DNA of 39,433 nucleotides, from the IMG/VR virus record IMGVR_UViG_3300042114_000023, positions 1-39,433 of that record. One strand, written 5' to 3'. Numbering within the stretch: the stretch's first letter is position 1; the number at the start of each line of letters is the position of its first letter. Shown piece by piece: positions 15,375 through 37,728 of this stretch. Under the pieces are notes generated by a model. The model did no database searches, was not told where the DNA came from, and saw only the letters and a list, made by a program, of their open reading frames with translations. Both the position numbers and the translations under genes were made by a program. The DNA is from a virus.

Positions 15375-15375
15375 A

Positions 15376-15648
15376 ATGGAAGCAGTAATAATTGCGATAG
15401 CTGCTGCATTCAACCTTCTCATAATAAAATGGAAAGTAGAACACCATAGGTACCAAGATGCAGTATTAGATACTACACTATTGGTAATACTCTCTTCTGT
15501 TTTCGCTAACTCATTAGGGGGTATGATAATAGCCACAATCAGTTCTTTTATAGCATCTATCTATTTATTATTCTCTCCTCCTGCATTCCTAAGTTCTGTA
15601 GATACTACAGAACTTATAGATAAGTGGAAAGAGAGGTTTCCTAAATGA
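15376..15648 (+). CDS. Small membrane protein (about three TM segments), possible holin
   Basis: This 90-residue protein has an N-terminal hydrophobic helix (AVIIAIAAAFNLLII), a charged loop (KWKVEHHRYQD) and one or two further hydrophobic helices (TTLLVILSSVFANSLGGMII and ATISSFIASIYLLF), and ends in a basic tail. The size and layout fit small phage holins or membrane-remodelling proteins, but a GTA-type holin is also encoded in the late region at 38151-38567, so this early-region protein may do something else. Its stop overlaps the next ATG. Confidence 0.6.
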   Translation: MEAVIIAIAAAFNLLIIKWKVEHHRYQDAVLDTTLLVILSSVFANSLGGMIIATISSFIASIYLLFSPPAFLSSVDTTELIDKWKERFPK

Positions 15649-15818
15649 CATTTCTAAAATCCCTATTCTACACTATCATAATAGTAATAGTTACAATTGC
15701 AATATTAGCTACAGTCTATGTTTCAATTTGGATTATCCTAAGTATAGTAGTATTACTATTATTCTCAGGATTTCACAGCTTATTAAAAGCAAAGCTTCAC
15801 CTACTTAAGAATTCCTAG
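15645..15818 (+). CDS. Small hydrophobic membrane protein (57 aa)
   Basis: This 57-residue frame starts at an ATGA overlap with the preceding membrane protein. About 40 consecutive residues are strongly hydrophobic (TIIIVIVTIAILATVYVSIW, then IILSIVVLLLFSGF), giving two likely TM helices, with a basic end LLKAKLHLLKNS. With the preceding gene it forms a membrane-protein pair ending the plus-strand operon. Its last 18 bases overlap the 3' end of the convergent minus-strand gene and contain part of a terminator-like inverted repeat. Confidence 0.6.
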   Translation: MTFLKSLFYTIIIVIVTIAILATVYVSIWIILSIVVLLLFSGFHSLLKAKLHLLKNS

Positions 15819-15838
15819 GAATTGTAAAGAAGTAGGTG
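15798..15838. terminator. Nested bidirectional terminator-like inverted repeat at the convergent junction
   Basis: CACCTACTT (15798-15806) and AAGTAGGTG (15830-15838) form a perfect 9-bp stem. The loop contains the perfect 14-base palindrome AATTCCTAGGAATT (15810-15823). The element lies across the stop codons of both converging genes. T-rich stretches follow on the minus side (GCTTTGCTTTTAATA), less so on the plus side. It is the only candidate for ending both transcripts. Confidence 0.65.
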
Positions 15839-18800: not shown

Positions 18801-19652
18801 AGTAATAGTTTGCACTTCTAAATCTTTACTTTCAATTGCAAATCTAGTAATTGCGTGCATTAATTCATGTGCATATACTTCTGTAGCTGTTTTATCACTA
18901 TAATCCATATTTGGTGCAATATTTATAACTATACCATTCATATCAACAGTTCCACTGTTTCGTTGTGCATCTTTATTCAAATATAAACTCTTATTCCTGA
19001 TAAATTCTGGACCTATCATATCAATAAGACCTTTTACATATTTTTTATATCCTTCATCAGCATCGTCCAATTCATCTATAATGGCTTTCATACCATCAAT
19101 ACTTTTCAATGCATTCTTCCGTAGGCTCTCTTCTCTTTTATTATCTATAGCCTCTTCATCACTACCTAGTATTTGTTGTAGAGTTTTATGGAATATCTCA
19201 TCGAAGTCTGGAGCTACATCTCCATCTTTAGTAGACCACACTCCATTTTCATTATGTAATTGTAATGTATCACCCCTAGTTCTAATGATATTTATAATCT
19301 TACCTTTCTTTACTATGTTAATACCCAACACATCTATAGTCTCTTCATGGTTATCCCAAAACTTTACATACAATCCTTCAAATATTAATACATCTTCCAG
19401 TTCTTCTTTAAATTTCTTACTTTGTATCTGATTATATGAATCCGAAACTGTACTTTCGTCACTTCCTAAAGTAGTTCCAATAGGAATACGAGGCATAGCA
19501 GTAACATACGTACCTACTTCACTATCTACAGTAAATCCAGCTGTATCTGATTTGACTTCGGCATGTTTTTCTATAGCCTCTTGAATTTGTTCGTATACGT
19601 TTACACTTCTTTTTTTCACTAATTCAATAGCTTGAGATATTTGACAATTCAT
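15801..19652 (-). CDS. Detached C-terminal module of the N4-type virion RNA polymerase, with zincin motif
   Basis: This 1283-residue protein lies directly downstream of the virion RNA polymerase. ATG 19652 shares one base with the polymerase stop (TAATG) and has GAGGAG just upstream, giving tight translational coupling. An HExxH zinc-protease motif YAHELMHA (H262, E263, H266) is followed by SRHEFLAYGMTNKKV, whose Glu could be the third ligand, a pattern seen in phage polyvalent-protein metallopeptidases. The C-terminal third has TPVVFIGNVISNFMY and NMGLFMFTKYMKRI. Adding it to the polymerase gives about 3358 residues, close to N4 gp50 (about 3500), whose C-terminal third is needed for packaging and injection. 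I infer that it is packaged and ejected with the polymerase. Confidence 0.7.
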   Translation of the reverse strand: MNCQISQAIELVKKRSVNVYEQIQEAIEKHAEVKSDTAGFTVDSEVGTYVTAMPRIPIGTTLGSDESTVSDSYNQIQSKKFKEELEDVLIFEGLYVKFWDNHEETIDVLGINIVKKGKIINIIRTRGDTLQLHNENGVWSTKDGDVAPDFDEIFHKTLQQILGSDEEAIDNKREESLRKNALKSIDGMKAIIDELDDADEGYKKYVKGLIDMIGPEFIRNKSLYLNKDAQRNSGTVDMNGIVINIAPNMDYSDKTATEVYAHELMHAITRFAIESKDLEVQTITRQLTELRNQAAKIFSWKDFMPTQSLNKTADKVKAQARYEYIFENINSRHEFLAYGMTNKKVMSKLKANKTTFTPDKDMTLFDKLQVFVQKLLNVALGKVKWSSIDKNMKAQLHQLTFELMVHNGKAIKSTNQKNLNSTLDAVAKSINIGNKKISQLFNMVTDAFAGDPDARIGMPNFNAGVFEKTAYMLKMLPKLAVREDLRGIREVVISSFGLSPEGVIQNIMRDVEGNPSSLERDIEHLAMASDGIDRVRELTVVETTKTIREKFGELTSVEDEAITLSLLDTDVGVLLKDYSIQEIGGLLSNPEALEKRIVKVKNELRKIDSKNFFWNINQATGLGFYLATGKAGVAQNLNAYNIASGILTVHRRKARRNVVEKVDELATLVGIKYTFQDSNELVSKLIAKNPDAVKYVLELNEGIKKDAREQIFETDVNIIKGYSKEIFDDTIDVRIRPLSEKAIMEYNGFELVKVLDGDTGTMALYRSKMYVNSSYNRGASRITNIVKRGTSLTDISFTDDYSTSKRALQKEIKRIRYEAYEEVAKMQSGEYTPDTGNTLSPVLNQDGLVMNYRYMMGKVNKKELLGQDTKATAVMGRTLGSIRDKVDTDIQNKLVLEVIQKDMKTNYVKGSALGRNNQQYIKIENNSPNTTVSEIYKLLPEHMKEAIRDSDNGFIAVRRDMLHNYFGFRDMSILDFKLVHGVTPDVLHKWVKYAEKMWQQIVSISKVDIVIRTPVVFIGNVISNFMYSVVNGTSPLRVLKMQVRNMQAIKDYLDVQAEVEKLRIAGLVGKDSSKRISMLERELKSSAVADLMEAGMYQAIVEDLKKQDIKSSNKVVRKIEYATDSLPEYVKNGANWLYLGKGTGFFDFMTTATQYSDFIARATEYQLLRERGVSQKVALDNVLDVFINYGKPASSFEEYLNNMGLFMFTKYMKRITRVVHKSIHDKPLNVLLSVFAQEAFFEVDDIQDQNILTRSFSNLHQDMFKHFDNAITPTSLQFLGILK

Positions 19653-22600
19653 TAACACTCCTCTAATTGTATATTATTGCGTAATAGTAACTGCTTCACA
19701 ACTGGCTTATTTAATATCTCTAAGATAGCCTTTTTCTGTGCATCATTATACTTACTTTCTACTTTAATATTCTCGCCTTTATAAGCATACTTACTTCCAG
19801 GCATAGCACTCATGTGCACTACATCTATATCATGATTAAAAAGTTCTTTTCTCATCTTAGTAATAAACTCCGCTACTTCTTTTAACTCTGTTAGCGTTTT
19901 TTCTGATTCCTCAGTAGAAGCATCTTTGAAAACTCTAGTATAAGATTCTAATAGAGCCTCTATTATGCTATACTCTTTATTAACTTTAACTATGTTCTTA
20001 TTGTAGCTACTGACTACTTCTTTTGTTTTGAGTAGTTTTGTTATAATAGCATCATGTATTCCTAAAATACCACCATTAAAATCTAATATAGTATTTCCAA
20101 TAGCAGCACCATCTAAATAGTGAATAGGTACAACAGAACCAGATTTAATAGCTGCCTTCAATTGACGTATCTTACTTTGTACCTTCTTATTTTTACCATC
20201 TGCCAACTTAGTTGATACGGTACCATAGCTCTCTTCTAGTGTTTTAGAATCTATATTAACTGTATCATAAATTGCAATAGTGTCACTTAAATTTTCAGCT
20301 TTAGAGTAAGGTCCTTTTATAAGTGGAAATTTATCACGTAAACTTTTGATTATTTCTAAGTCTTCTTTCTTTGTAATACCTCTACCTTTACTATTTTGCA
20401 CTTCACTTACCGCAATTAAATAGTCAGTATCATATGCTATAAACATCTCAGTGAATGCTTTATTAGTTATATCGTTTACCTTAACGAACTCACTAAAATT
20501 ATCTTCCAATGATTTAGCTGCCAAATGACCATAAGTACTTACACCCATATCATTTAAGTATTTATACAAATCTGACATACCTGGACTTATAGCTGTAATA
20601 GTGCTAGGATCTTTCTTTTTTAAGTCTGATATTAAACTCTTTCCGTACGTAAGTTTTAGCTTTAAGAGTAGTGCATTTTCTTCTTTTGACAAGTCTTTAC
20701 CAGCAACAAACTTATCTATCAGACCATCTGCTATAATACTTCCTAAGCTCTTCTTGATTGCACCGATTCCTCTACTATAGTTGAATGTCATAAATGGGTC
20801 TTTAAATAGTGTACGTAATGCTTTACCTACTTTCCCTTCATCATCTACTGTAGGTAACGCAGCCACAAATACCTCATGAGGTATGCTACTATCATACTTT
20901 ACAACCCCATCCCAAGGATTCCAATCTTTGCCTTCTTTTTTAGGGTAATTCTCTTCTCTAACCTCACCATGATGTACAGTTTTAGCTAATGTCTCATAAC
21001 TATCAAAAAATACTTTCTTGCCTGTAACAACATCTATCGTACTAATTTCATCATTCATAGATGTAACAGTTTTATCTATAAACATACCTGTTTTAGCTAA
21101 CCAATCTTTGACAGTTTCAAATACACTTTTAATGCCCTCTTTATCTTTCAATATCGGAAATTGTAATAGTTTTAGCCCAAACCCTGATGTAACTGCATCA
21201 GACTCTACCGTTAGGAAGGTATCAAACTTCCCATCTTTTGCTGCATTATACACCTTTAAAGCTTCTACACCTTGTAAGTAATGACTTAAATGTTCTACCT
21301 CAATACCATCAGTAAACTTACCAGTCTCTAACATCTGCATCAATTCTTTCGGGTCTTTTTTTAATAGTAGCTTTCCAAACTCTTGTACCTCAGCATTAGA
21401 CTTCTTATCAGTGCTCATACCAAAAGCTTGTGCTAATGCAAACCTAAATAGTTCCATATGTTCGTTATTATTTACATCTAATTCTGATCTATGGGCTTCC
21501 ATAACTACAGTAAATCTATGTAATTTGTCTGTCTGAGGATTTACAGTATTACTATCCATCATGTAACGACCGTTTTTAGAATAGAACCAATCAAAATACA
21601 TCTCATCCATCTCTAGTTCTTTCAATGCATCTAAACTACGTATTATCTCCTCGTTCTTAGCTTTTTGTGAGTCTCTTGCATTATAGCTTAATTCTTGCAT
21701 CTCTTTTTCAGTCATATACCCTAGACGGTGTAATACTATATCTCTATTTTTATTTTCTACTAACCATGTAAATACACCTTCTTCTTTTACAAACTTATCT
21801 TGTCTAAACAAGTCCAATACTTTTGCAGCAGTATCGGATTGCTCTGTAATAGGGTTATTTCTAATACTTCTATCTTTAGTTTTTATAGGTTTAAAGTGAG
21901 GTCCTTTTTTAAACGTATCTTCTACTTTCAACACTTTCTTAAACTCATCAAATGTAGCTTTATGTATAGGCATATTGACCTTACCTTTAGCTGTAAATCT
22001 AATAAATGGGATAGTAGTCTCTACCGTCTTTTCGTCTATTATATAGCCTAAAAATTTATTATGCTTCGCAGCTTTAACATCAATAAACTCTAAATCTCCA
22101 TTCTTTATACCTACATGCAATGCTACATTTCCAAGATCTGCTACAAGTTTAGCGTACAAATCTTGGGGTATATTCTCATTCATAGATAAACCTAAAGATT
22201 GTAATATGGTCTTACCTATATCATCTACAGCATTCTTAGAGTACATACCTAAGTCTTTAAAGAACTTAATCATATCTTTATCAATATCAAACTCTTGTTT
22301 ACCTGTCATAGCTGCTATCTGTTCTTTATTTTTACTGCCTAAATTATACGCACCCATAGCCATATACTCAGTAAGTGCAACATCTATAGCTACAGCTACA
22401 TTCTCATTTATACTGCCTTCAGTATCAAATATAAGTCCTCTAGAAGGGGATGACATTAACTGTAATAACTCTTTAGGTACTTTATATTTTGTTACCTCAT
22501 TATCTATCGGAGCTAGTATCTTTTTTAACAGGTTAGTTGTTAAACGTTGAGCATCTTGCACTACAGCACTACTGAAATATTTGACATGTACACTACCTAA

Positions 22601-25600
22601 TAAACTGGATACACTATTACTAAGCTTTACATACTTACTAATTTCTGTAGGTTGAGCAAACTTAGCACCTGCATATCCTTTATCTGCTTCTTTTATTGTA
22701 TTACTTACACTATTTCTTAACAGGTCTCGTGTTATGTCTTTACTGATTATCTTTTCTTTTCGAGCCTCTAATTCTTCTATCATATTAGAGAGCTTTAATA
22801 TCTCTGTACCATTACTTTCTGCATCTTTTTCTAATTCTTTTAACTCTTCTGTGTATACATCAACATTGTTATCTATCTGCTGTATTTTAGCAATGACATC
22901 TACTTGTTGTAATTCTTGTTTTACCTGAGCTTCATGTTCTGCTTTAAACGCCTCCTCTTCAGGAGTAAGTAATTCTTTACGTTGTAATCTAGTAACTATT
23001 TTAGTAACTTCCATACTTTCTGTTTTCTTTTCTAGCTTCTGTCTCTTTGCTTCAACTTTAATTTCATCTACTTTTATATTAATCTTACTTACCCATCTGC
23101 CTGATTTTGGTTGTGGGTGTCCAGCAACATCTACTTCCACATACCCATTCTTGGCTAATTTATTAGCAGTAATATGTTCTGTTTTAGTACGCTTACTTGC
23201 TATATCCATAAAAATAGTTTCACCCTTTTTTATTTTAGACTCTAACTTACTTAAAAATCCCAACCTATTTTTAGGTGTAACCTTTTTATCTACTCTAAAT
23301 TTTCCTGTAGGTGAGTAAGGATCTATACCAGTAGGTTCAGTACGTTGAATACCATACTTATCTATAACCTTACCAATCCCTTCCACGTTACGTTTAATTG
23401 CTTTGATAGTATTATAGGTAGCAGGGATTATCTTACCCTCTTTAATGTAGATATCAAACCCCCCTCCACCAGCATACGACACCCTTTCTTTTCCGTCTTT
23501 TTGAATACCACTTTTTAAATTAGCCTCAATAGTAGATACTTTCTTTTCAAACCTATCTAATCTATCTATTTGCGTGTTTTCAAAATGCTCTAGCTGATCC
23601 TCTATTTGAGATATGGTTTTACTATTTCCTTCTGGGTCTGTATTTAATCTTTTTAAAGCTCTGTCATAAGTCTGATACCCTTTTTTTCCAGCAGTAGCTT
23701 CAAACTCTACAGTTGCACTATCTTTTATAAGTTTAACTGTTTCAAAACCAACACCAAACCTTTCTCCAATTTTCAATAGGTTATTCATCAAAGATGTACT
23801 ATTCCTATCTGTAGCGTTTACAAACATCTCCTCTATAAATGCCTCAGCTTCTTCACTACTACCTAAACGTAACTCTTCCAGCTTAATAGGCACATCAGTT
23901 TGTGACAGCTTATCAGCGATTGTTTGACGTAACTTTTGAGCTTCTATCTCAGTATCTTTACTCATATCCAATATATCTAGTTTTTTAAGTACAGCTGCAT
24001 ATCCTTTAGGTTCATTCGTGTTTACAAACTTCTTCAATTTATCAACAGTTTCAGCACTCTTAATTTGAGCCTCAGTAAGCTTTACTGGTTTCTCATTGAT
24101 GGTTTCAGACTTACTGTTTGTAATACCCTCTATACCTGCAGCTACTGGTACATACGCTACACCTGCAGCTTTCATAACACCTACAGATCCTGGAGTCATC
24201 ATAGCACTAACTATCATATCCTCTTGGTTTTTCTGGGATGTAACTATATCAGTAATACCTAGCCCATCTTCTTTGTAGACCTTAGATACATTTTCCATAC
24301 TAGCTTGAATAACCTCAGTAGGAATCTCTTTGATAATTATATCAGCAGCTACACCAAAGCCTTTAGCAGTTAAGGTTTTAGCTAATACTAACTTGTCTTT
24401 ATCAGAAGCCATATTAAGTAGCTTCATTACACTTTCAGAACCAATACCAGCCTTAGTAATGATACCTTTATCTATAAAGCCATCCAAGTTATTTACTAAC
24501 ATATTAATACCAAATGAGCCCATAACCCTAATAGGTGACATATCTTCTTTATATAACGCTTTATACTCTTCCATATTTGCAGATGTCTGTCCCATACTAT
24601 TAGCTATAAATCCTGTTTGACCTTGAGCTACCCTCATTAACTTGTCTACAGTTTTAGCCCCGTCTACTAATTCTTTAGTCTTAGAAGCTTTATCTACTGC
24701 GTTCATACCAGCGGTTTCGGCTTTAATTAGTTTTCCTAACTTACTTGCAGCCTGTAAAGGCTTTCCTGGAAGAAACAGTGTAGCTACAAACGCTAATGAA
24801 CTAGCTCCAGCCTCTCCAGCAACCTCTAATGCAGAAGGTCCAGCAGTAAATAAGAACTCACCCCAATCTCCATCTTTTTGGAATTTACCGTACGCTGTTT
24901 TTATCTCTTCGGAGGCATTTTGCATATGAGAAGCATCATACCCAGTAAGCTTATTAGCATATTCTTCTATTTCTTTAGAAGATGCTATACTACCACCTAC
25001 TTTACCTTCACTTAACCATCCTGCCAACTCACTAACAGCATCTGCAGTTCCATATACAGACTTAACTATTGTACTAGCAGCAGCCTCTACTGCGTTTCCA
25101 ACCTTATTGCGATTAGAAGTAAACGCCCTATTAGTATCAACATCCATTAAGCCTACATATTCAGGTTCTCTATACCCTAAACTATTACCGATACTTTGTT
25201 GTGTGCTAGGATTACGTACATTAGTTAATGGTCTACCAAAATGCCCAACTTCTCCTGTATCTACCCTTTCCACTGGTATATTTAATGGGTTCTTCTTATC
25301 ACCCAAGTGTAGCCCGTGATCTTTATCTACCCAGTCTAATGGTCCTGGAGTCCAAGAAGAAGTGTTAGCATCTTTTGTTAAGTTATATAACCCTAATAAT
25401 TGTTCTTTAGTACCTGCTCTATATATATCATCCATAGTAATAGATTTAATAGGTCTATTCAACTCTTGTGCTAACCTTGCTTTCTGACGTTCTATTTTTA
25501 ATTTACCACTTGGAGTATTCAGGTATTCATCGTTTTTTACATTATCTGGATGAGGTACTTCATATGCATCAAATCCTTGAATTCTATCTTCAGTAGCTAC

Positions 25601-25879
25601 ACCAATAAGAGCACCTCCAGCACCAACTCCTCCTGTAACTCCTAAGAATTGAGGGCTATCTGCATCTGTCATACTTTCTAATATAGCCGTTTTATATATA
25701 GGCTTTTCTTGTAATGCATCTACTTTTGCTTCTTTGGCGACAGATAATGCAGCTAATTTAAGATCCCGCTTTGAAGGTACAGCTTGTATAATTGGGTTAG
25801 GCATAATAGCCGTATCATGAGCTGTAGGAATTGGTGATATAAGTTGGTCTAGTGTAAGTGGAGTTAGTAGTTTATCCAT
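19652..25879 (-). CDS. Virion-encapsidated RNA polymerase (N4 gp50-like), truncated after the polymerase domain
   Basis: This 2075-residue single-subunit RNA polymerase would be injected with the genome to transcribe early genes. The polymerase motifs are in order: T/DxxGR-type FYSKNGRYMM followed by NPQ (R1438); motif A TVESDAVTSG (D1561); motif B RTLFKDPFMTFNYSRG (R1689, K1693, Y1701); and motif C GIHDAI (D1943). Spacings closely match N4 mini-vRNAP. About 1000 N-terminal residues precede the domain, with hydrophobic stretches around 370-600 and a coiled coil around 950-1050, as in N4 gp50. Unlike N4, the frame stops soon after motif C, and the C-terminal third is a separate gene. An extended -10 promoter lies at 25910-25918, and AAGGAT precedes the ATG. 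Confidence 0.92.
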   Translation of the reverse strand: MDKLLTPLTLDQLISPIPTAHDTAIMPNPIIQAVPSKRDLKLAALSVAKEAKVDALQEKPIYKTAILESMTDADSPQFLGVTGGVGAGGALIGVATEDRIQGFDAYEVPHPDNVKNDEYLNTPSGKLKIERQKARLAQELNRPIKSITMDDIYRAGTKEQLLGLYNLTKDANTSSWTPGPLDWVDKDHGLHLGDKKNPLNIPVERVDTGEVGHFGRPLTNVRNPSTQQSIGNSLGYREPEYVGLMDVDTNRAFTSNRNKVGNAVEAAASTIVKSVYGTADAVSELAGWLSEGKVGGSIASSKEIEEYANKLTGYDASHMQNASEEIKTAYGKFQKDGDWGEFLFTAGPSALEVAGEAGASSLAFVATLFLPGKPLQAASKLGKLIKAETAGMNAVDKASKTKELVDGAKTVDKLMRVAQGQTGFIANSMGQTSANMEEYKALYKEDMSPIRVMGSFGINMLVNNLDGFIDKGIITKAGIGSESVMKLLNMASDKDKLVLAKTLTAKGFGVAADIIIKEIPTEVIQASMENVSKVYKEDGLGITDIVTSQKNQEDMIVSAMMTPGSVGVMKAAGVAYVPVAAGIEGITNSKSETINEKPVKLTEAQIKSAETVDKLKKFVNTNEPKGYAAVLKKLDILDMSKDTEIEAQKLRQTIADKLSQTDVPIKLEELRLGSSEEAEAFIEEMFVNATDRNSTSLMNNLLKIGERFGVGFETVKLIKDSATVEFEATAGKKGYQTYDRALKRLNTDPEGNSKTISQIEDQLEHFENTQIDRLDRFEKKVSTIEANLKSGIQKDGKERVSYAGGGGFDIYIKEGKIIPATYNTIKAIKRNVEGIGKVIDKYGIQRTEPTGIDPYSPTGKFRVDKKVTPKNRLGFLSKLESKIKKGETIFMDIASKRTKTEHITANKLAKNGYVEVDVAGHPQPKSGRWVSKINIKVDEIKVEAKRQKLEKKTESMEVTKIVTRLQRKELLTPEEEAFKAEHEAQVKQELQQVDVIAKIQQIDNNVDVYTEELKELEKDAESNGTEILKLSNMIEELEARKEKIISKDITRDLLRNSVSNTIKEADKGYAGAKFAQPTEISKYVKLSNSVSSLLGSVHVKYFSSAVVQDAQRLTTNLLKKILAPIDNEVTKYKVPKELLQLMSSPSRGLIFDTEGSINENVAVAIDVALTEYMAMGAYNLGSKNKEQIAAMTGKQEFDIDKDMIKFFKDLGMYSKNAVDDIGKTILQSLGLSMNENIPQDLYAKLVADLGNVALHVGIKNGDLEFIDVKAAKHNKFLGYIIDEKTVETTIPFIRFTAKGKVNMPIHKATFDEFKKVLKVEDTFKKGPHFKPIKTKDRSIRNNPITEQSDTAAKVLDLFRQDKFVKEEGVFTWLVENKNRDIVLHRLGYMTEKEMQELSYNARDSQKAKNEEIIRSLDALKELEMDEMYFDWFYSKNGRYMMDSNTVNPQTDKLHRFTVVMEAHRSELDVNNNEHMELFRFALAQAFGMSTDKKSNAEVQEFGKLLLKKDPKELMQMLETGKFTDGIEVEHLSHYLQGVEALKVYNAAKDGKFDTFLTVESDAVTSGFGLKLLQFPILKDKEGIKSVFETVKDWLAKTGMFIDKTVTSMNDEISTIDVVTGKKVFFDSYETLAKTVHHGEVREENYPKKEGKDWNPWDGVVKYDSSIPHEVFVAALPTVDDEGKVGKALRTLFKDPFMTFNYSRGIGAIKKSLGSIIADGLIDKFVAGKDLSKEENALLLKLKLTYGKSLISDLKKKDPSTITAISPGMSDLYKYLNDMGVSTYGHLAAKSLEDNFSEFVKVNDITNKAFTEMFIAYDTDYLIAVSEVQNSKGRGITKKEDLEIIKSLRDKFPLIKGPYSKAENLSDTIAIYDTVNIDSKTLEESYGTVSTKLADGKNKKVQSKIRQLKAAIKSGSVVPIHYLDGAAIGNTILDFNGGILGIHDAIITKLLKTKEVVSSYNKNIVKVNKEYSIIEALLESYTRVFKDASTEESEKTLTELKEVAEFITKMRKELFNHDIDVVHMSAMPGSKYAYKGENIKVESKYNDAQKKAILEILNKPVVKQLLLRNNIQLEEC

Positions 25880-27622: not shown

Positions 27623-28117
27623 TTATACCATATGACTCTGAAACTTAGCAGTTTTAGCATCTGCCATAGCATCTCTATCTCTAGCATATTGCTGAGCATC
27701 TTTCATTAGGTTTAGGTTTTGGTTAGCAAAATACATATTTCCTAATACGCCAGCTCCAGATATGCCAGCATTAGTCCACCCTAGTGCATTACCTATTCCG
27801 CTTTCTTTGGGCTTAACGGGTTTAACACCAGCAGTAGCAGCATCTACTGTAGCACCATTCTCTACAGATGGGTATCCTGCAGCCAAAGACTTATCTACAG
27901 TAGGATACAGAGTGCTACTCATACCTGCAGTTCCTGTATTATATTGAGTAGTACCGTAAGGGTTACCAATACCTAAATCTATAGATTTTGAAAGTGGCAT
28001 ACTCATACCCATATCTATATTACCAACTTTAGATACATACCCTGGAGCCATACCCATAGAGGCTATTTCTAATGGAGTATAGGGGTTACCAGTAAGGGGG
28101 TTTATTTTATCAACCAT
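27623..28117 (-). CDS. Small virion protein (N4 gp51/52 position)
   Basis: This 164-residue protein is Gly/Pro/Thr-rich in its first 100 residues (INPLTGNPYTPLEIASMGM), then has a glycine-rich hydrophobic segment (LGWTNAGISGAGVLGNMYFA, about 118-137) and a helical end MKDAQQYARDRDAMADAKTA. A small protein with one Gly-rich hydrophobic helix next to the virion polymerase suggests an ejection or internal head protein like the 16-kDa N4 virion proteins; this is inference from position and composition. It is preceded by AAAGGAT and by the extended -10 at 28146-28154. Confidence 0.55.
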   Translation of the reverse strand: MVDKINPLTGNPYTPLEIASMGMAPGYVSKVGNIDMGMSMPLSKSIDLGIGNPYGTTQYNTGTAGMSSTLYPTVDKSLAAGYPSVENGATVDAATAGVKPVKPKESGIGNALGWTNAGISGAGVLGNMYFANQNLNLMKDAQQYARDRDAMADAKTAKFQSHMV

Positions 28118-28140: not shown

Positions 28141-28155
28141 ATGATATTATATCAT
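28141..28155 (-). promoter_or_regulatory. Extended -10 promoter embedded in a perfect palindrome
   Basis: ATGATATTATATCAT is a perfect 7+1+7 palindrome. On the minus strand it contains TGATATAAT, an extended -10, 28 bases upstream of the 164-residue gene. Its TGA is also the stop codon of the radical-SAM fusion gene. The symmetry could make it an operator as well as a promoter. No -35 box was seen. Confidence 0.5.
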
Positions 28156-30761
28156 AGCTTGTATAGTATATTTGCTATATACTCATCAGTACCTGCATTA
28201 CCTACTACATTATTATCCATACTGATACCGAAATCCATGAATGCCTCTCCTTTATACTCATATCCAAAATTAGCAGCTATAGTCATCTCTGGATCGAATG
28301 TAGACGTTGGGTTGACAAATCCTGACATTACGTATTCTGCATTTCGATTAGATGAGTACGTGAGCATATCTTCTACTTGCTTATATGATTGTATCAATCT
28401 TCTAGCATTTAGTTTAGCTATTTTATCATAGATTTTATCAGTATCGGCACGTAGCCTTCTCTTAGTTTCTTGCAATGCTTCTTCAGCCTGTACTGTATCT
28501 TGGTATGTCACATACCCATTATATGCAGTACTCAACATCTCGTACGTAGTATATGCATCACTGGAAAATACAGCAGCTACCGTATCGGGCAGATGTGCCA
28601 TTAGTATAGCACTAGCATTTTCAGGAGTAGTAGACAACATAACTACTTTAGCAGATATATTAACTATTGTATTTATTGCCATAAAGTACTCAGTCAGTTC
28701 TTGGTAGTACTTAGCATCACTATACATATATGTACCTAGTTCTGACCACGACTCTTTTAGGTTAAATACATCATTTAGTAGCATATCCAACATTGAGAAT
28801 ACAGCATTCATCAGCACACCTTGACCGTACTGAGAATCCAGTGTAATTACTAGGTCCATTATTTGTGTAATAATTGCTATAGTAGTTGTAGTTGTAAATA
28901 CATACCCACCAGGAACTAGTATGGAGATTGCTACTAGAATAGCTATCTGAGTGAGTTTCCATAGTATATTTAATAACCTACCTCCAGCTTCCATATCCCC
29001 ATCAAGGAAAAACCCTTTAGCATCACTAGCTATACCACCAACTACTAAAGGAAGCCACATAAGATACTTTAGTTGCGGATGTTTCAATACACCTTGTATA
29101 AAGTCATAATTTTCTTGGAACTCCTTCACTAGTGCATCCACTCGAGCAGAAGCTTCACTCAGCTTTGCACTCCACTCTCTCTGAGTTCTTTTTAGTTTTG
29201 CAGAAGCCACCAATTGTAATACTTCATCTGGCATAACCCATTTGTCTGTGAGCTTATCCATTGTATCTTCGTATTTATCAACCAGCTCGTTATACCCTTC
29301 TACCGCATCATTCACTTTCTGTTGATCGTCAGAATACTTACCAGTAACTACGTCATATACTTGATTGGCATCTTCTTGATTAGTGAGTCCAAATCCTATC
29401 ATAGCTATACCTGCTACAAAAGTGAATGGATTGGCTAACATAACTATACCTAGTAAAGTACCACGATTACGCTCTAGCTCATCCCCTGCATTATTCCAGG
29501 CTCTATCCGCCTCGTCAAAAACATTATTTTTACCACGCTCAAACTCATCTGCTATGTCTTGAGTACTTGGTATGCTCACACAAACGCAGTCACAAACACA
29601 AAAACACTGTTCTTTGTTAAAGCTATCTGCTTTCGTTATAAAAGGATGTTCTACAACTGTAATTTTATTTTTAGTCCATAAAGTTTTAGGATTCAATACA
29701 ATAAGTTTTCTATTATATTCGAGGGCATTGCTTATAGTTTTATTTGATACTTTCGTATCAACTTTAGCTACAATTATCTCTTTACCTATAGAAGCTCGCT
29801 TTATAAAACAATCATTTGCCTTTCCGTCTACTCTATATATAGGGCATCCTCCATGACACTCTTGAAGTTTAGGACAAGTTAAACAATCATCATGTATTTC
29901 AAATGCACCGCTTAAGAAGTAGTTCGCCCTTTTCCCTATAATATCTATTAGTGATGACTCATAGATATTACCTATAGCAGACGTTATCTCTCTATCTTGA
30001 TTACATGGGTAGGCTGTTCCATCATCTTCTATTTCAAGGATTGTACATCCGCTTCCGCTTACTTGCGTATCATTACTTCTAAAAGAAGCCATGTACTTTG
30101 TAAATCCTGCTTCATGCATAGCATTAATATACATACGCATTTGAGCTTTTGACAAAACGTTTTTTTCACCTTCAACAAGTCTAAAACGCAATTGCTCTTT
30201 AGACTCTTTGAGCATTATTGGAATCCACTCCATAAACTCGTCTAAATTATCTATCGTATGACGAGTAATCGTACAGAGGTAGTTCATTCTTACTTTATAG
30301 CTATCTAAAATAGTCATACCTCTTCTCACGGCAAAGTAAGATTCATCTCTACTTAGATTATGAATCTTTTCAGTACCGTCTATCGTAGTACTTACCCCAA
30401 ACTTTTTAAGGGTTGATTTACGGATTACTTTAAAAAAAATATCTGCGTACTCTATTTTACCAAAATTTATAATATTTGATTGTATAGAAACATTTGATGC
30501 CACATCAGCAACGATGTTTAAACACTCCGCCAAAATAGCAGCAGGCAAAAGTGTACACTCAGCACCTATAAATACAATGCTATTATAGTAAATCCCATAT
30601 TCCATGCACTCGGTTCGTATTTTACGCACAAGTTTAAGGGTAGCCTTTAAGTTTACACTGCTCCCCTTACGTACACTCGTAGGAATATGGCAATACTCAC
30701 AATCAATATTACATTTTCTCGTTGGTGAGATATAGAGAGTACCTTCTATCCTATTCAGCAT
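28152..30761 (-). CDS. Radical-SAM/SPASM enzyme fused to a cysteine-motif membrane virion protein
   Basis: This 869-residue protein has two halves. Residues 1 to about 345 form a radical-SAM enzyme: the 4Fe-4S motif CNIDCEYC (C17, C21, C24), a GGE-like FIGAEC loop, and a full SPASM domain (C-x13-C with DGTAYPC, then CLTCPKLQECHGGC and a last Cys in NDCFIKR), as in anSME and RiPP-maturing enzymes. At 386-394 is CFCVCDCVC. Residues 395-869 contain no cysteine at all and have several hydrophobic segments (LGIVMLANPFTFVAGIAMIG, LMWLPLVVGG, IAILVAISILVPGG, TIAIITQIMDLVI) among helical regions, like an ejection or membrane-channel protein. The gene sits inside the virion operon, one base after the preceding stop, with a weak ribosome-binding site. 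The substrate is unknown; the cysteine motif is the obvious candidate. Confidence 0.85.
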   Translation of the reverse strand: MLNRIEGTLYISPTRKCNIDCEYCHIPTSVRKGSSVNLKATLKLVRKIRTECMEYGIYYNSIVFIGAECTLLPAAILAECLNIVADVASNVSIQSNIINFGKIEYADIFFKVIRKSTLKKFGVSTTIDGTEKIHNLSRDESYFAVRRGMTILDSYKVRMNYLCTITRHTIDNLDEFMEWIPIMLKESKEQLRFRLVEGEKNVLSKAQMRMYINAMHEAGFTKYMASFRSNDTQVSGSGCTILEIEDDGTAYPCNQDREITSAIGNIYESSLIDIIGKRANYFLSGAFEIHDDCLTCPKLQECHGGCPIYRVDGKANDCFIKRASIGKEIIVAKVDTKVSNKTISNALEYNRKLIVLNPKTLWTKNKITVVEHPFITKADSFNKEQCFCVCDCVCVSIPSTQDIADEFERGKNNVFDEADRAWNNAGDELERNRGTLLGIVMLANPFTFVAGIAMIGFGLTNQEDANQVYDVVTGKYSDDQQKVNDAVEGYNELVDKYEDTMDKLTDKWVMPDEVLQLVASAKLKRTQREWSAKLSEASARVDALVKEFQENYDFIQGVLKHPQLKYLMWLPLVVGGIASDAKGFFLDGDMEAGGRLLNILWKLTQIAILVAISILVPGGYVFTTTTTIAIITQIMDLVITLDSQYGQGVLMNAVFSMLDMLLNDVFNLKESWSELGTYMYSDAKYYQELTEYFMAINTIVNISAKVVMLSTTPENASAILMAHLPDTVAAVFSSDAYTTYEMLSTAYNGYVTYQDTVQAEEALQETKRRLRADTDKIYDKIAKLNARRLIQSYKQVEDMLTYSSNRNAEYVMSGFVNPTSTFDPEMTIAANFGYEYKGEAFMDFGISMDNNVVGNAGTDEYIANILYKL

Positions 30762-30762
30762 C

Positions 30763-31074
30763 TTACACTACATTTATTATTTGACCATTTACGTACGAAA
30801 TAGTACAAGTAGTTACAGTCTTTGCTATAAAATCTACTGCTGTAACTACTGCTATACTTCCTGTGTACCCATTCTTATCTACCTTACTACTTAGAGCAGT
30901 TAATGTTTCAGAACTTATAGGCTTATCTGCATCACTTGTATTATCTACATTCCATAACCCTACTTGACTTTTAGTTACTTGATGAGGGTTTACTATACTT
31001 TGCATGTGAACATTTGAGATATTACTTACAGCATGTGACCGTATAGTCATAGGACTCTCTTTTGACTTAACCAT
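30763..31074 (-). CDS. Short structural protein with tail-fibre-type motif
   Basis: This 103-residue protein contains HQVTKSQVGLWNVDNTSDAD followed by KPIS, the VTxxQVGLxNVxNTSDxxKPIS element that recurs in phage tail fibres and other appendage proteins. The C-terminal half is beta-rich (GSIAVVTAVDF, TCTISYVNGQIINVV). It is probably a virion or appendage component. The ATG at 31074 overlaps the preceding gene. A second in-frame ATG at 31050 has a better AGAGAG site and may be the true start. Confidence 0.55.
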   Translation of the reverse strand: MVKSKESPMTIRSHAVSNISNVHMQSIVNPHQVTKSQVGLWNVDNTSDADKPISSETLTALSSKVDKNGYTGSIAVVTAVDFIAKTVTTCTISYVNGQIINVV

Positions 31075-32300: not shown

Positions 32301-32333
32301 TATACCAGAATCTACCTAGATAGACTCTGTATA
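32301..32333 (-). terminator. Long imperfect hairpin between two virion genes
   Basis: TATAC-AGA-TCTA pairs with TAGA-TCT-GTATA, about 12 base pairs with one bulge and one mismatch, in the 53-base gap after the 163-residue gene. There is no T-run, so it may be a leaky terminator or an RNA-processing site. Confidence 0.4.
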
Positions 32334-32335
32334 AA

Positions 32336-32827
32336 CTATGATTTATTCTTTTTTTCTAGCTTACGTTTGTACTCTTCTTCATCTGTATCTAGTACATCTA
32401 CGGTATACTTCTTAGCTGATTTAGCTACAGCATTGCCTTCTTGATCTTTGATGAAATTGATATACTCAATACTTTTAAGATTATCTATATGCATCTGTGA
32501 AATCCACCATTCCACACCGATAGGAATTACTTTAGCATCACCAAAGAAACTATTACGTACACTTGAGAAACATTCAGTATCTTCTGAGTTACGCTTATCG
32601 TTATTATACACGATACATAGACTACGTTTTCTAGCAGTAGCAATAACTTTAGCTCTCTTAGTACGTTTGTCATCTACAGGTACTTCTATCCTCACATTGA
32701 TGCGTTCTTCAACTACTGGTTCTTCAATCTTAGCTAATAGTTCTTCCAACTTAGATGTTGGTGCATTATCTTTGTACTCAATTCCGAGAGATGTTAGCTT
32801 TGCCTTCAAGTCTTCTCTAATATCCAT
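32336..32827 (-). CDS. HeH/LEM-domain protein downstream of the capsid gene
   Basis: This 163-residue protein starts with a helix-extension-helix (LEM/SAP-like) pattern, LKAKLTSLGIEYKDNAPTSK followed by LEELL, a small DNA- or protein-binding module common in phage head-region proteins. The rest holds SLCIVYNNDKRNSEDTECFS and a lysine/glutamate-rich tail. The C-terminal segment VEWWISQMHIDNLKSIEYI resembles T5- and T4-type small structural proteins, but I cannot name a family. It starts after AAGGATATAAA and is separated from the capsid gene by two hairpins. Confidence 0.6.
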   Translation of the reverse strand: MDIREDLKAKLTSLGIEYKDNAPTSKLEELLAKIEEPVVEERINVRIEVPVDDKRTKRAKVIATARKRSLCIVYNNDKRNSEDTECFSSVRNSFFGDAKVIPIGVEWWISQMHIDNLKSIEYINFIKDQEGNAVAKSAKKYTVDVLDTDEEEYKRKLEKKNKS

Positions 32828-32857
32828 TTTATATCCTTAAAACTATTGATTTATATA

Positions 32858-32893
32858 GAGGGTCTAGACCCTCAGATTAGTCCCCGAAGGGAC
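32858..32893 (-). terminator. Tandem terminator hairpins after the major capsid gene
   Basis: On the minus strand, GTCCC-TTCG-GGGAC (32893-32880, UUCG tetraloop) comes just after the capsid stop and is followed by the 16-base perfect palindrome GAGGGTCTAGACCCTC (32873-32858). Two strong hairpins behind the most highly expressed virion gene indicate a transcription terminator or attenuator that limits downstream expression. Confidence 0.75.
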
Positions 32894-32896
32894 ACC

Positions 32897-34141
32897 TTAC
32901 ATTACTTTTGGACCATTCACGTTAGTAGTTCCACCTGAACCATACGCACCAATACCAATATCAGTAGCTGCAGTTTCTACACGTAACAGTTTAGACTCAT
33001 CTAAGATGATACCAGCATAGAACCAGTTCACTGAGAAGAAACCTCTTGTTCCATATTTGTCAGTATCAGATACTTGACCAGGAGCTTTCGCATTGAACTT
33101 CATTTTACCCCAACCTTGTAAACCAACAGTTGCAAATGCACCCTGTGTAGGACAAAGAATAGGGTAAACATTAAATTTAGTGCCATTATGAGCTAGTGTA
33201 CCTGTATATGATGCAGGAATGTTTGCACCAGCACCTACCCATTTTTGAGCACGTTCAGTCTCTACGAATCTTAATTCATTAATAGCACCTACTTCATGAG
33301 GCATCAACGTAGCTGCAGAACCATACTGATTAACAGGAATCCATGCAGGTCTTCCAAACGTATCAGCTACACCTTGTAAATCAAACTTAACTTCAGGTCC
33401 AATGATACCTACATACGATGCATTGACAGTTTTGCTATCAATTTTAGTAGAACCAGTCACGATAGAAGTAAATTTCTTAGCACGATTAGAAACCAACGTA
33501 GCAACAATCTTACGAGTATCATCATAGCTAATTAAAGAATCAGCATCATCAGCACCAGTAACAGAAGTAGTGTCAGCACCTATAGTAATACGGCTTACAG
33601 CAGAACCTACATAAAATACGTTTGTACCAGACAACATATCCTTTTGAATCAAATCCTCATTCACTTGAGCAGCTGCATCACCTAACATCTCACGATAAAT
33701 CATCTGAGTTCTGTCTTCACTAAACAAATCAATCTCATCAGTATACGCTAAGTGTAGACCAAAACGGTTAAATGTTACTTCGCCAGTTTTCTTTGTAACT
33801 ACAACTCTATTGACTTCAGAAGCGCCTTCACCAAGAACTGGAAGACCAGCAGTAATATCTCCTAAATTTCTTGTAGATCCGTACAAGTTACCAGTAGTAG
33901 CTACACCATTTGCATTAAGACCTTTACCCGCTACACCAGCACCATCTAGGATTTGTTGAAACATTGAAATCTTGAAAGTCTTACCATATTTCTGTGGCAT
34001 ACTCTTACTATCAGCAAACGCTGAGTAAATTAAGTCAGCCGTTGCCGCCTTAACCCCTGCTCTATCATAATGATGCGTAACTGTATTAGCTCCGCTTGTT
34101 GCAGTTGTTGTACCATTTCCGTAAATCATTTCTCCAGCCAT
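32897..34141 (-). CDS. Major capsid protein (N4 gp56 family)
   Basis: This 414-residue protein has the typical N4-gp56-family features: an N-terminal arm with HHYDRAGVKAATADLIYSAFAD, then the segment TKKTGEVTFNRFGLHLAYTDE, and a later part with GYG-like loops, IIGPEVKFDLQ, LPHE-like LMPHEVGAINELRFVETER and a C-terminal GGTTNVNGPKVM. The length fits N4 MCP (about 400). It follows the scaffold-like gene, starts after AAGGAG and ends before a tandem hairpin terminator. Confidence 0.92.
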   Translation of the reverse strand: MAGEMIYGNGTTTATSGANTVTHHYDRAGVKAATADLIYSAFADSKSMPQKYGKTFKISMFQQILDGAGVAGKGLNANGVATTGNLYGSTRNLGDITAGLPVLGEGASEVNRVVVTKKTGEVTFNRFGLHLAYTDEIDLFSEDRTQMIYREMLGDAAAQVNEDLIQKDMLSGTNVFYVGSAVSRITIGADTTSVTGADDADSLISYDDTRKIVATLVSNRAKKFTSIVTGSTKIDSKTVNASYVGIIGPEVKFDLQGVADTFGRPAWIPVNQYGSAATLMPHEVGAINELRFVETERAQKWVGAGANIPASYTGTLAHNGTKFNVYPILCPTQGAFATVGLQGWGKMKFNAKAPGQVSDTDKYGTRGFFSVNWFYAGIILDESKLLRVETAATDIGIGAYGSGGTTNVNGPKVM

Positions 34142-34161
34142 AATTAGCTCCTTTTTGTAAC

Positions 34162-35223
34162 TTAGCTACGCATTACACTATTATAGAACTTCTCGTAATC
34201 CTCGTCACTCATATTCACGAAGTCGGTCTCTGTCGTCTTAGACGATGTAGCTCTACTTTGAGTAGGGGCTGCAGCCTTTTTCTTCTGAACTACTTGTTGA
34301 CGTTTCTCACTTTTCACTTCCATATTTTTACTATCTTTAGCTATTTCAGCTTCATAGTATAGTTTCTCTGCAGCTAAGTAATAATCCAGCTTACTCTTTT
34401 TCCCATTATCTAGAATCTCCATTCTGAGAGCTTCAGGAGCTACTTTCGCATACACCCCTTTTTTTATCTCATTATGCAGACCTCGAATCATCTGAGGATT
34501 TTCAGCAAGCACCTTTCTACTTTCACTATCCCACTGAGTATCTACAACTTTTTGGGTCATTTCATACTCAGCATCTTTACTGATTTCAGCAACAATCTCC
34601 TGTATTGCACTAGTAGATTCATCTACACCATGCTCATTAGGAACGTACTTACTAACAGCTTCAGTGTCAATATCCAGTGGGTCTACACCCAGTCCTTTGA
34701 CGAATGATTGTAAGGCTTCTTTACTTCCCTTCTTCATATCTATTAAAGTATTAATGTCAGACTCTGTCAACCCATTCTCTTTCATGGCACTTATACTACG
34801 TCTGAAAGGGGCTATGTCAGCCATCTTTCTCTTATAGTCAGCACCCATACTCGCCATTTGATAGACTTCATCTAAACTTTTCACTGGTATATCGACACCA
34901 TTAGCACGAACTGGTCTCAAACCTGATTCTGCTTTCGCCTTTTCTTCCACTTTAGCTTCTGGTTCTTCCTCTACGGATTCCTTCACCTCAACTTCTTCTT
35001 TGGCTTGTTCATCATCGGAGTCTTCATCGCCTACAGTTTCTGAATTATCAGCAGCAGTAGGTTTTTCATCTACTTCTTCAGCTGGTTCATCATCCTGTGT
35101 TTCGTCAGGTTGTTCCGCTTCATCAAACACTTTATTAGCATCATACGCACCCTGTTCTATTTCTTCGTCAGAAGCTCTCCATAGGGCTTCTTCTTCGGCA
35201 GTCATTTCCATTATATCACTCAT
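34162..35223 (-). CDS. Scaffold-like acidic protein (N4 gp57 position)
   Basis: This 353-residue protein has an extremely acidic first 100 residues (runs such as EEVDEKPTAADNSE, EEVEVKESVEEEPEAKVEEK), a helical coiled-coil middle and a Lys/Gln-rich end. The acidic N-terminus plus helices, directly upstream of the capsid gene, fits a scaffolding protein of the N4 gp57 type. Function is inferred from composition and position. It starts at ATG 35223, three bases after the preceding stop. Confidence 0.75.
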   Translation of the reverse strand: MSDIMEMTAEEEALWRASDEEIEQGAYDANKVFDEAEQPDETQDDEPAEEVDEKPTAADNSETVGDEDSDDEQAKEEVEVKESVEEEPEAKVEEKAKAESGLRPVRANGVDIPVKSLDEVYQMASMGADYKRKMADIAPFRRSISAMKENGLTESDINTLIDMKKGSKEALQSFVKGLGVDPLDIDTEAVSKYVPNEHGVDESTSAIQEIVAEISKDAEYEMTQKVVDTQWDSESRKVLAENPQMIRGLHNEIKKGVYAKVAPEALRMEILDNGKKSKLDYYLAAEKLYYEAEIAKDSKNMEVKSEKRQQVVQKKKAAAPTQSRATSSKTTETDFVNMSDEDYEKFYNSVMRS

Positions 35224-35226
35224 GGC

Positions 35227-35538
35227 TTACTCTTCTGAATCTATTACAGATTCTGCTTCTGCTCTCAATGCTTCATGAGCACTCTCTCCAAGTCTTTCCA
35301 CAATAAGTAAAAAGTTCTGCAATACACTCACACCATGCAGATCCGAATAGATACCAGCTCTATCCACTCCAGGTGTAGCTAGCATACTTACTTGATTTAA
35401 TGGGTATAATTCCATAAAACCATATTCAATAAGATGCTTGAAGTCAGCATTTTTACTTAGACGCTCATAAGCATCATACAATTTAGCAGTTAATTCTGCA
35501 TTTTCTCTAAGGTTGGTATTCGGTTTGTCTTTAATCAT
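35227..35538 (-). CDS. Small conserved head-region protein (N4 gp58 position)
   Basis: This 103-residue helical protein includes HLIEYGFMELYPLNQVSMLA and RAGIYSDLHGVSVLQNFL, with an acidic C-terminus ESVIDSEE. It lies between portal and scaffold, the place of the small gp58 gene of N4. I know of no function. ATG 35538 is favoured over an upstream TTG (35553) because GAAAGG precedes it. An extended -10 promoter lies further upstream at 35602-35610. Confidence 0.6.
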   Translation of the reverse strand: MIKDKPNTNLRENAELTAKLYDAYERLSKNADFKHLIEYGFMELYPLNQVSMLATPGVDRAGIYSDLHGVSVLQNFLLIVERLGESAHEALRAEAESVIDSEE

Positions 35539-35601
35539 AAAGGACCCTTTCAATTATCTATAGATTCAGCTTTTATCCACATCAGTTTTTAGTGCTGTAG
35601 A

Positions 35602-35610
35602 ATTATACCA
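35602..35610 (-). promoter_or_regulatory. Extended -10 promoter at the portal stop codon
   Basis: The minus strand reads TGGTATAAT overlapping the portal stop codon, 64 bases upstream of the gp58-position gene. It would add transcription to the small gene, scaffold and capsid. At the -35 position there is only GCTACA (three of six matches). Confidence 0.5.
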
Positions 35611-37591
35611 CAGATTTATTCATTGTAGCTATTTGTTGCTTAACTACTTCACCATCTATTTTCTGACCTTGTTTTTCCATCTCTCTTTGATGAGGAATTC
35701 CCTGTTCTCTCTCAAGGAAGTCAATATCCTTGAGGTCAGTCTCAGAATGAGCCATTCTAGCTTTAGCTTGTTCCACCATAGTCTTAGCTTTTTTGAGTTC
35801 TACATCCACAGCATTTTCTTGACCTTTAGCTTGCTCATTGAATACCTCAGCTTCTAGTTTAGCTATCTGTAGTTCTTGTATTTTCATAGCCATAGGATCT
35901 GGTTGAGGTGCATATTCTTCTATCATTTTAGCTAGGTCTGGCATCTTATTCAATCTAGCTATTTCACTCATGATTATTTTACGCATACCCTCATCCATAG
36001 ATTGAGCCATAGTCTGCATTAAGAAACCTAGCTCCTGAGCCTTAGCTGCGTTATCCTCAGCTGTGCTTACAGATATATCTATATCTATTAATCCGCTTAC
36101 ATCATCGTCATGTCCTGGAACTACTTCTTCGTTAGTAATTCTCATGATATCTTCAGCATCTAGGAACTCTACATTATACGCCATCCACTTTCTCAGTAAT
36201 GGTTTTACTAAATTCTCAGCTATGCTTCTCACTATGTTTAATCTACGTGTACTAGTTGCATCTAATGCTCCTCTAGCACCAGTAGCTGTACTTCCGAGAC
36301 TTGCTCCACTGATACCACCACTGAAGGATTTAACACCAGTTAGGGATTCTATATCATTATTCATTAGTCCAAACATATCGAATGCACTACCAGGTATTTG
36401 ATTGAAGCTACCGTCCCAGAAATCTGTAGGACTATTGTTGAACTCAAAGTTATCCCCACTCAGAAATTTCTTTCTATTGAGTGTATCTAGGGCACCTTTC
36501 TTGACACCTTTCTGACCATTAGTGCTTTGAGCCATGTTATCTATAATACCTCTCAGAATAGCAGTCTTCACCTTCTGATTGTCCCCTATCATTTCCATGT
36601 TACTTTCACCGAACAAGCTAAATGGTACACTATTAAATGGAGCTACTATGAACGGTAGTTTCTTATCAGGAAATGGGTTTTCTTCTATTCTAATTACAGT
36701 ACTTCCTACCCATGTACACACTATAGGTTCTACGATACCATCACCATTCCTATCGAAATTACCCCAGTACTCATACACTAGTAGCTTCTTTCTAGCATCA
36801 TCACTGAATCTGAACTTAGTTAGGTCTTCACTAATATACATATAGCTAGATCCATCTAGAGTTTGATTTACATCAAGATCTACCTTATCGAGATTCCTAT
36901 ATCTACCATCAGCTTTTAACGTAGATATATCACTTTCATATCTATAGATTATAAATTGGGCATTATCTATGTCATCTTGACATGTAGGATCTATGAACAC
37001 ATCCTCATTTCTACATACCTTAGCAGTAGGTTTGTTTACTAGTACCCTAGTTTGTCTATCTAGTCTAACACCTCTCTGATATTGCATACCATCAAATGGA
37101 TTAATTTCCATCACAGGTACTTCCACTTCTATCTCGTCTTCCTCATACTTCCATCCAGTCTGTACTACACATGTACCTTCTTGGTCTAATACTTTAATAG
37201 CTTTAGTCATGAAATTGAATCTGTTGAATTGTCTACAGAATTGAGTATTGAGTATTAGTTCATTCTGTCTAGCTAAAGGTCTATCCTCAAACGATACAGG
37301 ATTGCCTTTTACTATATCTCCAGTACTTACAAATGGATCTATCAGGGTTGCATGTTGCCATTCACCTTGTCTTTTCCCATCTCTAGATACTATAGAGGAT
37401 CTACCTTTTACTTCATTGCCGTAAGGTTTACCTTCATACTCATTTTTCCATTTATCTATCTTACCATCTAGGTCACGTCTTTGTAATTCAGCACTTCTCA
37501 AGTCACTCTTGAAGATACGTAGCATTTCAGATATACCTACTTTCGTACTTGCAGTGCCTTGTCCCATACTAGTATATTCGTTTGTGCTCAT
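35603..37591 (-). CDS. Portal protein (N4 gp59-like)
   Basis: This 662-residue protein has features of podoviral portals of the N4 gp59 type: an N-terminal region with RRDLDGKIDKWKNEYEGKPY and VSFEDRPLARQNELILN, a central SRYE-like YRYESDISTLK, and a helix/loop SFSGGISGASLGSTATGARG. A long coiled-coil C-terminus follows (about 540-650, Gln/Lys/Glu-rich, KAKTMVEQAKARMAHSETD), which forms the portal barrel or crown. It is the first gene of the head operon, after a 138-base gap containing a TATAAT box. Confidence 0.85.
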   Translation of the reverse strand: MSTNEYTSMGQGTASTKVGISEMLRIFKSDLRSAELQRRDLDGKIDKWKNEYEGKPYGNEVKGRSSIVSRDGKRQGEWQHATLIDPFVSTGDIVKGNPVSFEDRPLARQNELILNTQFCRQFNRFNFMTKAIKVLDQEGTCVVQTGWKYEEDEIEVEVPVMEINPFDGMQYQRGVRLDRQTRVLVNKPTAKVCRNEDVFIDPTCQDDIDNAQFIIYRYESDISTLKADGRYRNLDKVDLDVNQTLDGSSYMYISEDLTKFRFSDDARKKLLVYEYWGNFDRNGDGIVEPIVCTWVGSTVIRIEENPFPDKKLPFIVAPFNSVPFSLFGESNMEMIGDNQKVKTAILRGIIDNMAQSTNGQKGVKKGALDTLNRKKFLSGDNFEFNNSPTDFWDGSFNQIPGSAFDMFGLMNNDIESLTGVKSFSGGISGASLGSTATGARGALDATSTRRLNIVRSIAENLVKPLLRKWMAYNVEFLDAEDIMRITNEEVVPGHDDDVSGLIDIDISVSTAEDNAAKAQELGFLMQTMAQSMDEGMRKIIMSEIARLNKMPDLAKMIEEYAPQPDPMAMKIQELQIAKLEAEVFNEQAKGQENAVDVELKKAKTMVEQAKARMAHSETDLKDIDFLEREQGIPHQREMEKQGQKIDGEVVKQQIATMNKSVV

Positions 37592-37728
37592 TCTTTACCT
37601 ACTTTAATTATCTTAGTTTATAGAGTGTTCTCAGATATTCTTTAGTTCCCTGATACTCTGCCTTAAACCGACACATTTTGATGTATTGAAACTAGTCGGT
37701 CCTTTACTTTAAGGTATTATACTATACT
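37592..37728 (-). promoter_or_regulatory. Intergenic region upstream of the portal gene
   Basis: This 137-base gap holds a -10-like TAGTATAAT on the minus strand (37724-37716) without a visible -35, and an inverted repeat ACCGAC/GTCGGT (37667-37672, 37695-37700) in the leader. An inner ACAT/ATGT stem lies in its loop. The hairpin lies between the putative start site and the portal ATG and could be a leader structure or a terminator for the lysis genes. Confidence 0.4.

Follow-up and report, generated by a model that had tools for sequence, protein, structure and literature searches.

In-frame fusion of a radical-SAM/SPASM domain with a hydrophobic ejection-module protein in an N4-like phage

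We describe here a phage gene in which a radical-SAM/SPASM domain and a hydrophobic, predicted helical protein form one polypeptide within the block of structural genes; the evidence presented below supports a real in-frame fusion. The window (the whole stretch of DNA that was analysed) is a virus record of 39,433 bases, from an uncultured phage with N4-type portal, capsid and virion RNA polymerase (vRNAP) genes. The fusion suggests that the phage may chemically tailor part of its own particle. The explanation that we prefer, tentatively and as something short of probable, is that a probably active seven-cysteine SPASM enzyme modifies a peptide of its own module, the favoured target being an array of five cysteines where the two halves meet. 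The established substrates of radical-SAM enzymes are bacterial peptides and a few proteins, and phage-borne members have been given a role in metabolism (PMC2853527); covalent attachment of such an enzyme to an ejection-module protein would bring radical chemistry into virus assembly. The features discussed are listed in Table 1.

Table 1. Features of the fusion gene and its surroundings, in window coordinates
Feature	Position	Strand	Evidence
Block without DNA identity to sister contig L004/L016	24143..32300	.	blastn; flanks 87-94% identical
gp51-position protein, 552 aa	25954..27612	-	132 residues aligned with the sister's counterpart at 33% identity; gene order
gp52-like protein, 164 aa, ejectosome outer-membrane pore family	27623..28117	-	PHROG 2646, same as N4 gp52
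Fusion ORF, radical-SAM/SPASM half plus hydrophobic helical half	28152..30761	-	869 aa; uninterrupted frame from an ATG
C-terminal half, residues 395-869; predicted helical, cysteine-free, no detectable relative	28155..29579	-	hydropathy, AlphaFold2, homology searches
Long predicted helix near C-terminus, residues 734-812	28326..28562	-	AlphaFold2, low confidence
Hydrophobic stretch 2, residues 606-639	28845..28946	-	hydropathy
Hydrophobic stretch 1, residues 437-455	29397..29453	-	hydropathy
Five-cysteine array CFCVCDCVC, residues 386-394, joint of halves	29580..29606	-	sequence; cysteine counts and shuffles
Radical-SAM/SPASM half, residues 1-345	29727..30761	-	PHROG 1802, TIGR04085, anSME by sequence and fold
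SPASM cysteine set, residues 239-318, seven cysteines	29808..30047	-	alignment
GAEC, residues 66-69, replacing GGEP SAM-binding motif	30555..30566	-	alignment
CxxxCxxC radical-SAM cluster motif, residues 17-24	30690..30713	-	alignment with 9 homologues
103-aa protein with tail-fibre-type module; stop directly before fusion start (TAAGATG)	30763..31074	-	PHROGs; start context
gp54-like (tail tube family) protein, 293 aa	31067..31948	-	PHROG 2050, same as N4 gp54

Reading frame and gene position

The two halves are encoded in one continuous frame, as the first-pass annotation had stated, and the gene indeed lies within the capsid-to-polymerase block, between the major capsid protein gene (32897-34141) and two vRNAP genes (15801-25879). 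The stop codon of the upstream 103-aa gene runs up to the ATG of the fusion (TAAGATG), before which no canonical Shine-Dalgarno sequence was found, and translation of the fusion looks coupled to that of the gp54-like and 103-aa genes. A further in-frame start codon, a GTG at 29577-29579, directly follows the cysteine array. We regard it as decidedly unlikely that the fusion is only apparent, whether through an assembly or sequencing error joining two genes or through two products made by way of this GTG. The fusion is known as one copy, on a single metagenome contig, with no second copy in IMG/VR, and both the location of the GTG and the missing Shine-Dalgarno sequence at the ATG could be read in favour of two products or genes. 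However, the internal GTG is not preceded by a Shine-Dalgarno sequence either, whereas many neighbouring genes have AAGGA-type sites, so that a separate C-terminal product is unlikely. Moreover, no repeat of at least 14 bases links the joint to any other place in the window, no clear sharp break in GC content or codon use is seen across it, and both flanks of the surrounding block match one sister contig.

IMG/VR was scanned with the full-length fusion, with its enzyme half and two segments of its C-terminal half, and also with vRNAP, the N-terminus of vRNAP and the gp51-position protein; the sole return was the sister contig, through portal and vRNAP. No fusion of the same layout was found in related phages, the named-phage collection, IMG/VR or the literature searched, in agreement with the earlier remark that no phage virion protein of this kind has been described. 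Radical-SAM/SPASM proteins of phages occur commonly in the predicted viral structures (a 974-aa viral protein, A0A1B1IX00, is a weak match there), and none of those seen is known as a fusion with an ejection-module protein.

The gene order in N4 is gp50 (vRNAP), gp51, gp52, gp53, gp54, gp55 and gp56 (capsid), and it is found again, with some insertions, in the other annotated N4-like phages examined. Since the neighbours of the fusion belong to the PHROGs of N4 gp54 and gp52 (2050 and 2646), the fusion occupies the gp53, or tail-plug, slot between them. In N4, gp51 and gp52 are channel-forming ejection proteins, gp54 is the tail tube, and gp53 is the tail plug; most of gp53 sits outside the tube, which it closes with a hydrophobic knot, and the receptor-binding sheath protein attaches to it (PMC12633501).

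Comparison with the sister phage (contig L004/L016) revealed that the ejection module is exchanged in its entirety, together with vRNAP residues 1-578, as one sharp block. DNA identity is 93-94% over 15142-24142 and 87-89% over 32301-37641, and between these regions blastn found no alignable DNA. The block measures 8.2 kb here and 7.5 kb in the sister, and it comprises, besides the vRNAP N-terminus, the gp54-like, 103-aa, fusion, gp52-like and gp51-position genes. At the gp53 slot the sister encodes a PHROG 2220 (gp53) protein of 948 aa together with an acetyltransferase-like gene, and its 24-kb contig contains no radical-SAM gene. Because the fusion belongs to the exchanged ejection module, and N4 ejects gp50, gp51 and gp52 (PMC12633501), the enzyme half could be an effector that enters the host with the genome, like vRNAP, and modifies an envelope or cytoplasmic target early in infection. 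This appears very unlikely, as N4 gp53 is not ejected but remains tethered to the tail (PMC12633501), and a three-cluster enzyme would need to refold after passing a channel of about 35 angstrom, for which there is no known case.

Other genes at the same slot may be of interest in their own right. The acetyltransferase-like gene of the sister (GNAT, 135 aa; L016:3696-4103) lies directly before its gp53 gene, where this phage has the radical-SAM fusion. In the Alteromonas phages R22Y (L050:23774-24554) and PT11-V19 (L025:24951-25701), an acyl-carrier-like protein of 92-98 aa is encoded directly before gp53, accompanied by a conserved 167-aa protein without known family. These cases hint that, in N4-like phages, genes for protein modification tend to settle at the gp53 slot. 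The acyl-carrier-like gene of R22Y has been published as an auxiliary metabolic gene (PMC11705849); its position suggests tail-protein modification instead of metabolism.

Two polymerase genes of the window are split. The giant vRNAP is encoded by overlapping genes at 19652-25879 and 15801-19658 (2075 and 1285 aa; stop/start overlap TTAATG), divided near the border of the polymerase and the C-terminal domain, which in N4 inhibits the polymerase. The split is identical in the sister phage and differs in PT11-V19 (1000 and 2082 aa). In the family A DNA polymerase (318-3919), a gene for a NUMOD4/HNH homing endonuclease (2291-2857) separates a 606-aa part from a 280-aa part, each a gene of its own, and Rfam reported no intron there at gathering score.

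The radical-SAM/SPASM half

Both cluster-ligand sets that the first-pass annotation had placed in residues 1-345 are complete: the radical-SAM motif C17-x3-C21-x2-C24 is intact, and the SPASM set consists of C239, C253, C293, C296, C302, C306 and C318, with the spacing CX13C (GX4C) ... CX2CX5CX3C ... C. The SPASM model TIGR04085 scores 36 bits, above its curated cut-off of 27; Pfam Radical_SAM falls slightly below its own (26.2 against 29.5), and PHROG 1802 matches residues 4-344 (E 3e-21). Profiles of named radical-SAM subfamilies score far under cut-off, PapB-type ranthipeptide and cyclophane maturases being among these sub-threshold matches. The closest solved relatives by sequence are the anSME structures 4k36-4k39 (E 5e-14). 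An AlphaFold2 model of the fusion, built with nine homologues, contains the SAM-binding fold: Foldseek aligns it with the full anSME chain (E 6e-11, about 340 columns), followed by lesser matches to ChlB, SkfB, MoaA, PqqE and EpeE. ChlB, SkfB, PqqE and EpeE act on peptides. The idea that PHROG 1802 is a tail-associated phage radical-SAM family was ruled out, since 13 of 14 control genomes contain ordinary bacterial genes that its profile also matches; for the same reason, the PHROG 1802 match common to the fusion and Campylobacter phage CAM-P21 is weak evidence of kinship.

The anSME-like reading stands as regards the best sequence and fold match, but it is otherwise weakened, and the identity of a sulfatase maturase (anSME) was ruled out. 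There is no cysteine between 239 and 253, i.e. the eighth SPASM cysteine (C261 in anSMEcpe) is absent, and the residue after the GX4C cysteine is Asn254, where anSMEcpe has Asp277, its catalytic base. Likewise, the score with TIGR03942 is 59.5 bits against a cut-off of 349. Seven SPASM cysteines are the complete set for most of these enzymes: only anSME has eight, and AlbA, ThnB, QhpD, MftC and KW_cyclase have seven, without exactly the extra one of anSME (PMC5491770). As judged from the aligned cysteines, the pattern of the fusion is that of peptide- and protein-cross-linking enzymes (AlbA, QhpD, MftC).

Two motif changes bear on activity. The GGEP position reads GAEC, a substitution that the first-pass annotation does not mention and in which the Glu is retained, and the QTNG motif is not preserved; activity is therefore not assured. 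On the other hand, none of the ten cluster cysteines has been lost at an identity of about 20% to any homologue (19-25% for the bacterial homologues fetched), which argues for selection on cluster binding, and the enzyme half is likely, though not certain, to be catalytically active. The same observations bear on a structural exaptation, whereby the radical-SAM fold would be a rigid outer or receptor-facing part of the plug and the array would bind metal or form disulfides. GAEC and the other motif changes would fit such a role, as would the variable outer part of gp53 proteins (a Calx-beta domain in R22Y), but a mere scaffold would not need the ten cysteines, and we find this explanation quite unlikely.

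The joint, the helical half and a candidate substrate in cis

The array CFCVCDCVC, likewise absent from the first-pass annotation, has a cysteine at every second position, five in all, right where the two halves meet, and no cysteine follows in the remaining 475 residues. Its pattern was reached in 1 of 20,000 shuffles of the whole fusion protein, and CxCxCxC occurs in no other open frame of at least 80 aa in the window or the compared loci. The DNA encoding the array is a degenerate hexamer repeat, from which it may have been created by slippage; one TGC amid the TGT codons indicates some drift with the cysteine retained. Virion-type proteins of this phage (15801-37591) are nearly cysteine-free: the gp51-position, gp52-like, gp54-like and gp57-like proteins have none, and the 103-aa protein and the two vRNAP chains (2075 and 1285 aa) have one each. 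We infer that the array is the best candidate for an in-cis substrate of the enzyme half.

An active enzyme could instead act in trans on the tail tube, the tail fibre, the gp52-like or gp51-position protein, or a sheath protein encoded outside the contig; the array would then be incidental and the fusion would merely deliver the enzyme to the assembly site. SPASM enzymes are typical protein and peptide modifiers, also on non-cysteine residues (PMC5491770), the neighbouring genes appear to be translationally coupled to the fusion, and CAM-P21 likewise has a radical-SAM gene next to tail genes. Nevertheless, the near absence of cysteines from the neighbouring module proteins (0 or 1 each), and the array that such a target would leave unexplained, make this possibility unlikely.

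The C-terminal half was modelled as all-helical at low confidence (pLDDT 42-50), and a model of this half alone (pLDDT 42) was too poor for a fold search. Its earlier description as multi-helix and hydrophobic is correct in kind, but the clear hydrophobic stretches are two, not many. By sequence, no relative was detected in named phages, IMG/VR, 398 genomes from the phylum of an Endozoicomonas genome, or the PDB. No homology to gp53 could be shown: neither tblastn nor hhalign against grouped and pooled gp53 alignments gave a significant match, and pairwise scores were not significant against shuffled and reversed controls. A profile of the conserved WY core recovers the gp53 proteins used to build it and not the fusion, and no other frame of the window matches this core above chance. 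Since the fusion has no gp53 signature or similarity, 'tail plug' is a reading of its gene position alone.

Returning to the explanation that we prefer, the enzyme half would act inside the host cell before virions are assembled, drawing on SAM and host reductant to modify a peptide of its own ejection module. The favoured target would be the array that tethers the enzyme to its partner half; if this were cross-linked by thioether-type bonds, such as QhpD, sactisynthases and ranthipeptide maturases form, the joint would become a strap, and the modified helical half would then be placed in the tail or ejection apparatus. A maturase tethered to its own substrate is the most economical model. Against it weigh the lack of any homologue of the fusion or of its C-terminal half, the GAEC motif, the lost QTNG, the repeat-coded array and the missing gp53 signature. 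A stronger version, which we find doubtful, is that of a self-modifying virion protein, whose built-in radical-SAM enzyme cross-links its own five-cysteine strap so that the particle carries its own maturase. If this were true, a radical-made, RiPP-like hinge would gate or stabilise genome ejection. An enzyme joined in this way to an ejection-module protein would be a self-contained enzyme-substrate pair on one chain, convenient to test.

Comparison with known systems

Among proteins of the same slot, N4 gp53 (PHROG 2220; PDB 9yft) resembles the fusion in its position between gp54 and gp52, its length (885 against 869 aa), its hydrophobic stretches and a long helix towards the C-terminus. The fusion differs in having neither sequence similarity to gp53 nor the WY core, while gp53 has no enzyme domain. 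Campylobacter phages CP220, CPt10 and CAM-P21 also encode radical-SAM domains, but fusion to a hydrophobic ejection-module protein was not seen there. The radical-SAM proteins of CP220 have been described as likely metabolic and non-essential (PMC2853527). The radical-SAM/SPASM gene of CAM-P21 (L002:19974-21731; 585 aa, with a C-terminal extension of 200 aa) belongs to the tail gene cluster, where tail-fibre and tail-sheath genes flank it, and, like the fusion, it has GAE instead of GGE.

Among the enzymes, anSME is the best sequence and fold match to the enzyme half; however, the fusion lacks equivalents of C261 and Asp277, and there is no sulfatase in the window. The sactisynthases and ranthipeptide maturases AlbA, SkfB and PapB are SPASM enzymes acting on cysteine-rich peptides, SkfB being a fold match and PapB a sub-threshold profile match. 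In contrast to these, the fusion scores far under the family cut-offs, shows no leader peptide or separate precursor, and belongs to a virus module instead of a peptide cluster. QhpD (of quinohemoprotein amine dehydrogenase) is, like the fusion, a seven-cysteine SPASM enzyme, and it introduces thioether bonds within a protein subunit (PMC5682303, PMC5491770). It acts in trans on a separate subunit, whereas in the fusion one chain carries both enzyme and candidate substrate, and the enzyme's partner is a phage protein.
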